A stretch of DNA of 36,637 nt from Treponema sp. GTDB taxonomy: Bacteria > Spirochaetota > Spirochaetia > Treponematales > Breznakiellaceae. How positions within the stretch are numbered: the first letter of the stretch is position 1; each line of letters opens with the position of its first letter. The notes below the pieces were generated by a model, which saw only the letters and a list, made by a program, of their open reading frames with translations, had not been told where the DNA came from and made no database searches. The stretch lies in NCBI GenBank assembly GCA_031259215.1, contig JAIRLU010000050.1:1-36637 (forward strand), in the 5' to 3' direction. Both the position numbers and the translations under genes were made by a program. Shown one piece after another: positions 33,338 to 35,747 of this stretch.

Positions 33338-33472
33338 ACATGCTAGGTACATAAAGGCGATGGGTTACCCATGAAGCACGGTTGGAGGATGGGGGCTAAA
33401 AAGGTTTTCCCGGTTCCCCGTAAACCTGCGCCATGCGTAGCGACTCGTCAAATTGATTAGGTAGGAGTCTTT

Positions 33473-33751
33473 ATGCAAGAAAAACATCTCCATGAACACA
33501 CCCACGGACACGAACATCCCCATGATCACCCCCATGGAAGCCATGATCTCGCCCAAGTACGGGCTTTAATGGAATACATGCTCGAGCATAACCAGCACCA
33601 CGCAGGAGAACTGGGGGATATGGCCCACACCCTCTCTCATGCAGGATTAGCTGAAGCCGCAGGGATCCTCACCCAGGGAGTAGCAGATTTTAAACGAGGG
33701 AATGAACAGCTCGCCAGAGCCCTAGAACTCATCAAGGGAGGGCAGCCGTAA
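33473..33751 (+). CDS. Histidine-rich putative metal (nickel) storage/chaperone protein
   Basis: The 92-residue cytoplasmic protein has a His-rich N-terminus (HLHEHTHGHEHPHDHPHG, residues 5-22) and a helical body with more His (YMLEHNQHHAGELGDMAH) and a closing helix DFKRGNEQLARALELI. The His cluster should bind Ni, Co or Zn. TAGGAG precedes ATG 33473. Its stop overlaps the cooT start (TAATG), so both are probably made together. The pairing recalls the His-rich CooJ with CooT in CO-dehydrogenase maturation, although this protein carries its His cluster at the N-terminus. Confidence 0.8.
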   Translation: MQEKHLHEHTHGHEHPHDHPHGSHDLAQVRALMEYMLEHNQHHAGELGDMAHTLSHAGLAEAAGILTQGVADFKRGNEQLARALELIKGGQP

Positions 33752-33957
33752 TGTGTTTATCCACCGTATATGAGCTCGGAACCGAGGGTTCCCCCCGGAT
33801 GCTGGCGGAATATGTGAGGGACCTCAGGGTTACCGGGGACATCTTAACCTTCACCGACATCATGGGCAAAGAAACGCAGGTTTCAGGGGCGCTCCAAAGG
33901 GTCGATCTGGTAAAAAATGCGATCATCATCACCGGGCTGCCACAAAAAGTACCATAA
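33751..33957 (+). CDS. cooT: CooT family nickel-binding protein
   Basis: The 68-residue protein begins MCLSTVYE and has a small beta-barrel-type pattern (YVRDLRVTGDILTFTDIMGKE, then GALQRVDLVKNAIII), matching CooT (formerly called predicted RNA-binding protein). In CooT the second-residue Cys is central to Ni(II) binding by the dimer; it is present here. CooT supports nickel insertion into CO dehydrogenase. It overlaps the His-rich gene by one base. This is the main hint of CO/acetyl-CoA metabolism in the window. Confidence 0.78.
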   Translation: MCLSTVYELGTEGSPRMLAEYVRDLRVTGDILTFTDIMGKETQVSGALQRVDLVKNAIIITGLPQKVP

Positions 33958-33988
33958 CCGAGAAACCACGTAAACTCAAGGGGAGCCT

Positions 33989-34252
33989 ATGAAAAGATAC
34001 GAGATGGTACGGGAAATATTCAACTCCTGTAGTAATAATCAGATGCGGGATGTTTTCATTAAAGAGATCCAGACTGATAATGTAGATCCCTGGGTACAGG
34101 AATTCCTTACCGGTACCCAGGTACAGTACGAAAAACATGAGAATCCCGATGGAGCGATAATTTTTGACATAAACACCGACGGGATGATGCAACGGATTAC
34201 CTTCACCGAACTGGCGGGATGGGATCCGGTTTTCATGGATGGGGCAGGGTAA
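33989..34252 (+). CDS. Conserved-looking small protein of the nickel cassette
   Basis: The 87-residue product (MKRYEMVREIFNSCSNNQMRDVF, then WVQEFLTGTQ and IIFDINTDGMMQRITFTELAGWDP) looks like a compact alpha/beta protein with no signal or membrane segment. I cannot name its family. GGGGAG precedes the start. It lies 31 bp after cooT in the same orientation and is probably co-transcribed. Confidence 0.7.
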   Translation: MKRYEMVREIFNSCSNNQMRDVFIKEIQTDNVDPWVQEFLTGTQVQYEKHENPDGAIIFDINTDGMMQRITFTELAGWDPVFMDGAG

Positions 34253-34379
34253 GGTATACTTCGGTGCATGGGCGGTTTCACGGTTTTTTTGTATTTAAAT
34301 TGGCCTAGGAATGGTGCGGATGGAAGAAAATTCCAGGGAACGCTGTTTTTTCTCCCGGTCTTAGGAAGGGTAGCAGGGG

Positions 34380-34468
34380 AGCCGGTTATATACACCGGGG
34401 GCTTTCTCTTTTATTTCATCCTTTTTTATGTTATATTTGAGCTAGTTTCAAAACTGACGTGTTGGAAC
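34380..34468. other. Hairpins between the nickel cassette and htrA
   Basis: AGCCGGT (34380-34386) pairs, with a bulge, with ACCGGGGGCT (34394-34403), followed by a T-rich stretch, a possible terminator. GTTTCAA (34445-34451) pairs with TTGGAAC (34462-34468) around an AACTGACG loop, closely resembling the hairpin at 1866-1890. The 71-codon ORF in this gap does not look real. Confidence 0.4.
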
Positions 34469-34505
34469 GAGTGTACAGCGTAAAAATACTACAGGAGGAA
34501 AACCG

Positions 34506-35747
34506 ATGAAGCTATACAGCCGTGGGCAGGTGATACTGTTCTGTGGGTTAAGCAGTCTCATCGTCGCTATGGGTGCAGTGGGGTTTGGATTATTGCGAAT
34601 TCCCGATAAAAAGGAGAGCCCTCCACTTACCTCCGAGCGGGATTCCCGCGAAACAGCGCCGCTGGACTTGCGCCAATCAAGTTCTCCTCAATCCTTCCAG
34701 ATCAATACCGCGGATCTCTTGCCTTATACCGAAGATGAGCGGGAAAACATCTCCATCTATGAACGGCTTAATGGGGCGGTGGTAAACATCACCACGGAAA
34801 CCGTGGCTATTAACTGGTTCCTCGAACCAGTGCCCCAAGAGGGCGGCTCCGGTTCAGGCTCCATCATTGATACTCGTGGCTATGTATTAACCAATAACCA
34901 TGTGGTAGAAAACGCCTACAAGGTGTTTATTAACCTTGCCGACGGCAGTCAGTTTGAAGGAACCCTGGTAGGAACGGATCCGGAAAACGACATTGCCGTG
35001 CTTAAATTTACCCCTCCCCGGAGCACGGAACTCAGGACTGTACCCTTTGGGGATTCGGGGAATCTCAAGGTAGGCCAGAAAGTGCTGGCTATTGGGAATC
35101 CTTTTGCTTTGGAAAGGACCTTGACCGTGGGTATTGTTTCGGGTCTGGGCCGTCCCATTAAGACCTCGAAGCAGCATATTATCCGGGACATGATCCAGAC
35201 CGATGCCTCCATCAACCCTGGTAATTCCGGCGGGCCCTTGCTTGATACCCAAGGCCGGATGATCGGTATCAATACGATGATCTATTCTCCCTCTGGGGGA
35301 TCGGTAGGTATCGGATTTGCAGTCCCGGTGAATACCGCCAAGCGGGTCGTGGCGGAACTCATTGAGTACGGTAAGGTCAAACGGGGCTGGATTGACGCAA
35401 CCCTGGTGCAGCTTTTCCCAGCCCTAGTCCGGTATGCAAAGTTGCCTGTATCTGGCGGGCTTTTAGTTTCCCGGACCAAGCGGAATGGTTTTGCGGATCG
35501 GGCAGGTATCCGCCAAGGGAGCGAGCCCGTACGGTACGGCTCCAGTGTGATCTATCTGGGGGGTGATATCATCACCTCCGTAGACGGTATGAAGACCGAG
35601 ACCTTAGCGGATCTCTATTCGGCCCTGGAAGACAACAAGCCTGGAGAAAAGGTGGCTGTAGAAATCCGGCGTGGGGGAGAAACCATAAAAGTAGAGCTTA
35701 CCTTGGCGGACCGGGAAGAAGTATTAAGCCCTGAAGGGATACGCTAA
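34506..35747 (+). CDS. htrA: HtrA/DegP-type periplasmic serine protease
   Basis: The 413-residue protein has an N-terminal membrane anchor or signal (about 9-30), a disordered linker, a trypsin-like domain with His in LTNNHVVENA, Asp in DPENDIAVLK and Ser in NPGNSGGPLLD, and one C-terminal PDZ domain (about 300-395, with GGDIITSVDGMKTETLADLY). HtrA proteases degrade or refold damaged envelope proteins. One PDZ domain suggests the DegS/HtrA rather than the DegP (two PDZ) arrangement. CAGGAGG precedes the start. Its stop overlaps a radC remnant on the other strand. Confidence 0.95.
   Translation: MKLYSRGQVILFCGLSSLIVAMGAVGFGLLRIPDKKESPPLTSERDSRETAPLDLRQSSSPQSFQINTADLLPYTEDERENISIYERLNGAVVNITTETVAINWFLEPVPQEGGSGSGSIIDTRGYVLTNNHVVENAYKVFINLADGSQFEGTLVGTDPENDIAVLKFTPPRSTELRTVPFGDSGNLKVGQKVLAIGNPFALERTLTVGIVSGLGRPIKTSKQHIIRDMIQTDASINPGNSGGPLLDTQGRMIGINTMIYSPSGGSVGIGFAVPVNTAKRVVAELIEYGKVKRGWIDATLVQLFPALVRYAKLPVSGGLLVSRTKRNGFADRAGIRQGSEPVRYGSSVIYLGGDIITSVDGMKTETLADLYSALEDNKPGEKVAVEIRRGGETIKVELTLADREEVLSPEGIR

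Follow-up and report, generated by a model that had tools for sequence, protein, structure and literature searches.

The closest described system to the locus studied here is CooCTJ of Rhodospirillum rubrum, the nickel-insertion accessory genes of its CO dehydrogenase (CODH) (Kerby 1997; review PMC6006190). These genes are thought to secure nickel loading under nickel scarcity, and what CooT and CooJ each do has been described as unclear (PMC6006190). In the accessible part of a survey of clade E CODH operons, CooT was present in 16% and CooJ in 12%, mostly together with one-carbon genes (eLife 2026, PMC13056359). Our literature search returned nothing that joined CooT, Treponema and acetyl-CoA synthase.

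In this study, we analysed three genes in a 36,637-nucleotide stretch of DNA (the window) from a spirochaete MAG of 2.73 Mb and 77% completeness, whose relatives point to the termite gut as its origin. The genes encode a His-rich protein (HIS), CooT and a further protein (THIRD) (Table 1). Judging from sequence and gene order, we put a probability of roughly 80% on the trio being a nickel-maturation (insertion) cassette for CODH/ACS. THIRD is best read as a putative, previously undescribed third component of this cassette.

Table 1. Features of the trio locus in window coordinates
Feature	Position	Strand	Remark
Shine-Dalgarno-like AGGAG, just 5' of HIS	33463..33472	+	putative, read by eye
HIS, small His-rich protein	33473..33751	+	92 aa ORF
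CooT nickel-binding accessory protein (PF10133)	33751..33957	+	68 aa ORF; Pfam
Shine-Dalgarno-like GGGGAG, just 5' of THIRD	33979..33988	+	putative, read by eye
THIRD, apparently unnamed family	33989..34252	+	87 aa ORF

The three ORFs are co-directional. The stop codon of HIS and the start codon of CooT have one base in common (TAATG), the CooT start carries a Shine-Dalgarno-like GGGAGGG as read by eye, and exactly 31 bp lie between CooT and THIRD. An earlier note on this DNA had described these three ORFs with the same overlap and gap, and all of this was confirmed. In comparisons with five same-genus relatives, all three genes were under purifying selection (dN/dS 0.12-0.24 for HIS, 0.16-0.23 for CooT and 0.15-0.22 for THIRD), and they are therefore real genes. 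Homologues of all three genes, in the same order, were found in other genera and in another phylum. The HIS/CooT overlap was exactly 1 base in 13 of the 18 triad loci. Because of the low dN/dS, the recurrent overlap and the order kept across genera and phyla, the trio is more than a chance arrangement. The neighbours, read by eye, are an outer-membrane polysaccharide-export-like gene upstream and an HtrA-like protease gene downstream, neither of them nickel-related. A promoter and terminator scan gave nothing above chance, and no Rfam RNA was found in the window.

The window protein is a genuine CooT, on the basis of its Pfam match, the fold match of a relative and an invariant Cys2. The match to PF10133 scored 62.9 bits against a cut-off of 27 (E = 3.4e-17). 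The protein begins MCLST, and C2 was invariant in 17/17 aligned sequences; Cys2, the proposed nickel ligand, would be expected to bind the metal in a CooT dimer. In searches of PDB sequences, a single-sequence query missed CooT and a profile reached it weakly, and the predicted fold settled the identity. This fold evidence comes from an AF2 model of a same-genus CooT-THIRD fusion (L064), a close relative, rather than from the window's own CooT; the CooT half of the model matched both 6fan (E = 4.8e-4, TMt 0.89) and 5n76 (TMt 0.78). A second CooT subfamily, with an MCEA or MCES start, adjoins DUF3842 in five clostridial loci, and in one spirochaete (L139) DUF3842 also adjoins a second copy of HIS, which suggests that DUF3842 is metal-related.

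HIS contains 15 His in 92 aa, of which 10 fall within the first 24 residues, and among 20 aligned members the His-rich stretch, where present, was N-terminal. In the same alignment, H39-N40-x2-H43-x2-E46 was invariant and H52 near-invariant. A similar His-pair motif occurs in published CooJ. The domain that follows the N-terminal tail is probably helical. No relative of HIS was found in Pfam, NCBIfam or the PDB, and a search of PDB chains with HIS profiles gave no match to CooJ at E ≤ 10, in a set for which the presence of a CooJ chain was unconfirmed. As a small His-rich protein encoded next to CooT, and in relatives within the CODH accessory cluster, HIS is CooJ-like in its putative role.

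THIRD carries the motif Y-E-x3-E-I-x-N-x-C...MRD...R, and Y4, E5, E9, I10, N12, C14, M19, R20, D21 and R69 are common to 63 homologues. Its AF2 model is all-beta (pLDDT 84.5, pTM 0.72), with C14 at the turn joining two long strands. Since C14 is the single invariant Cys and there is no invariant His, this Cys could be structural and not a metal ligand. Searches of the 63 members against Pfam and NCBIfam gave scattered single-member matches (best E 0.0042-0.0046) and no shared family. The PDB sequence search found no relative, and Foldseek against the PDB gave nothing at E ≤ 0.001 (best 0.019, TMq 0.30). The window's own genome also holds a diverged second THIRD paralogue on contig C195 (L136:1627-1926; E = 2.4e-21), near a DtxR-like metal regulator gene.

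We then counted the three families across genomes. Among 150 genomes of the family, CooT was present in 26, HIS in 26 and both in 25 (P = 3e-26), while THIRD was present in 24 of the 26 CooT genomes (P = 2e-14). The genus sets of CooT and HIS were identical (10/57). ACS-type CODH (a score class of CODH match, with gene context checked in the fetched loci) occurred in 21 of the 57 genera overall, in 14/14 THIRD genera (P = 1.5e-8) and in 10/10 CooT genera (P = 8e-6), with some phylogenetic dependence remaining in these genus counts. In a sample of 291 Clostridia genomes, all five with THIRD also had CODH and CooT, against base rates of 50 and 31, respectively, although three of the matches to THIRD were weak (E 1e-6 to 1e-8); with the query centre removed, the count was 4/4 (P = 7e-4 for CODH and 9e-5 for CooT). 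HIS was unlinked from CooT-THIRD yet kept in two genomes. HIS-CooT occurred without THIRD in genomes G004 and G029, and THIRD occurred without HIS-CooT in the same-genus genome G144 and at loci L060 and L061. Because G144 has THIRD and CODH and HIS-CooT was not found in it, the modules are separable. At L060 and L061, in the same genus, the lone THIRD adjoins htrA where the window (33473-34506) has the full triad; this may reflect either loss, or the joining of HIS-CooT to an older THIRD.

Two full-length CODHs were found in the window's own assembly. Contig C260 carries a complete CODH-CooC-AcsB-AcsD-AcsC-AcsE operon beside genes of the folate (methyl) branch of the Wood-Ljungdahl pathway, and contig C95 carries the second CODH (L037:1119-6768; 724 bits) with NuoE-like, NuoF-like and FeS proteins. 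The C95 cluster is possibly a CO:NAD(H) or electron-bifurcating module. These findings agree with the CO or acetyl-CoA metabolism suggested in the earlier note, which had proposed a check of the genome for CODH and ACS; both are present. Since the genome holds CODHs, the main objection foreseen in that note, a genome without CODH, does not apply. As alternative clients of the cassette we searched for two enzymes, [NiFe]-hydrogenase and urease, and neither was detected in this genome, an incomplete assembly.

The expected position of the triad beside CODH/ACS genes was found in other spirochaete genera and in gut Clostridia, but not in the window's own genome or its genus, where the triad lies away from the CODH/ACS operon. 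In nine loci from other spirochaete genera, the triad or a CooT-THIRD fusion directly follows acsE, and five of these, from termite-gut spirochaetes, have the order HIS-CooT-THIRD. Six loci of rumen or gut Clostridia have HIS-CooT-THIRD-CooC2 leading into acsD-acsC-acsE-acsB or standing beside CODH-CooC, the former arrangement being seen in four loci of gut Clostridia (L097, L103, L107 and L110), and three loci of acetogen-like Clostridia have HIS and CooT near acsB. CooT and THIRD form one ORF in about nine relatives, and in most other loci of the operon type the two genes share 1-4 bases. Fusion into one protein is strong evidence that CooT and THIRD share a function. The proposal that the third gene is an undescribed partner of CooT thus gained support from the fusion, from its co-occurrence with ACS-type CODH and from the lack of a curated family.

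The fusions in nine loci also bear on a reading in which THIRD has no relation to HIS-CooT and only chance has kept it beside them. That each occurs without the other in a few genomes would fit such a reading; however, the fusions strongly disfavour it, the same order is found in two phyla, and the co-occurrence counts for THIRD with CooT and with ACS-type CODH point the same way, so that we regard it as highly improbable. A different possibility is that the cassette serves general nickel homeostasis, as storage or detoxification, and not CODH/ACS in particular. Several loci would suit this: at L153, HIS-CooT is directly followed by NikA (TIGR02294 equivalog, 621 bits against a cut-off of 393), NikB and NikC, and then by a NikE-like ATPase that falls short of its equivalog cut-off; at L185, a CsoR/RcnR-family metal repressor gene (PF02583) precedes two HIS-like proteins and CooT; and at L139, the second HIS copy lies near ABC transporters. 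In addition, CODH was not detected in 4 of the 26 CooT genomes (G025, G068, G108 and G140), all of them incomplete MAGs, with G025 about 90% complete. Against homeostasis stand the recurrence of the cassette within the CODH/ACS operon, the presence of ACS-type CODH in every CooT genus, and the fact that no other nickel enzyme was found, two having been tested. We consider general homeostasis unlikely, and maturation of CODH/ACS remains the preferred reading. The CsoR/RcnR-family repressor at L185 (16-1689) itself has a His-rich tail.

Many Lachnospiraceae have THIRD without CooT nearby. THIRD stands directly before a CooC-like ATPase in eight loci and before the Fe-S carrier ATPase Mrp (PF10609) in five, and in eight Lachnospiraceae loci genes for an AAA_5 ATPase and a CobT_C VWA protein come after it, with Mrp as well in seven of them. 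AAA/VWA pairs are seen in chelatases such as CobST, and the Lachnospiraceae arrangement, to go by its genes, would form a chelatase-like module, with CODH in most, not all, of the tested genomes. The adjacency of THIRD to Mrp, to the AAA_5 and CobT-like VWA pair and to the clostridial CooC2 points to metal-cluster insertion as a common theme, and because it also occurs without CooT beside other metal-cluster NTPases, its role may be broader than that of CooT. THIRD could be a general metal-cluster maturation factor working with metal-insertion NTPases of the P-loop and AAA+ kinds (CooC2, Mrp/Nbp35 and MoxR/CobS plus CobT-like VWA proteins), with the CooT link as one use. The many loci of this kind favour such a factor, as does CODH above cut-off in 22 of the 27 clostridial genomes with stand-alone THIRD; no CODH was shown in the other five, however, THIRD adjoins or is fused to CooT in spirochaetes, the stand-alone spirochaete copies have no such NTPase nearby, and the Lachnospiraceae linkage may be an adjacency inherited in one lineage. 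We regard a general factor as possible and hold it tentatively. An equally tentative proposal is that THIRD founds a new adaptor family for metal insertion into nickel-iron-sulfur enzymes, whose partner machine varies with the lineage: spirochaetes fuse it to CooT, rumen Clostridia pair it with a CooC-like ATPase, and Lachnospiraceae combine it with a CobS/CobT-like chelatase and Mrp. Between a wider cluster-insertion adaptor and a specific partner of CooT, we lean slightly towards the latter for THIRD.

For the CODH/ACS cassette, we infer metal binding, the direction of transfer, the cluster served and the role of THIRD as follows. HIS would buffer or collect Ni(II) through its His-rich tail and HNxxHxxE motif, and CooT, a small beta-barrel, would as a dimer relay the nickel bound through Cys2. 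THIRD might then act with CooT as a docking or transfer module, bringing CooT to a CooC-type ATPase or to apo-CODH/ACS; the nickel could pass to that ATPase or, with no intermediate, to the C-cluster of CODH or the A-cluster of ACS. Little is understood of nickel insertion into CODH and ACS, and THIRD, a conserved extra component that is found fused to CooT and tracks ACS-type CODH across two phyla, offers a concrete new protein to test. THIRD may also help to produce active CODH/ACS in heterologous hosts for CO2 conversion, and the topic touches the acetogenesis that feeds termites.

Compared with known systems, the locus resembles R. rubrum CooCTJ in that a small His-rich protein and CooT are linked to CODH and the CooC ATPase. 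The order is HIS-CooT here and CooT-CooJ in R. rubrum, and the His tail is N-terminal in HIS, whereas in R. rubrum CooJ the His-rich domain is C-terminal (PMC6006190). Relative to the CooT family PF10133 (5n76, 6fan), the Pfam family, the fold and Cys2 are the same, and CooT is extended here by a fused or adjacent THIRD. The accessible part of the clade E CODH operon survey (PMC13056359) mentions no third protein, unlike the arrangement with THIRD described here. Further differences from R. rubrum CooCTJ are an extra conserved protein, sometimes fused to CooT, and the linkage to CODH/ACS.
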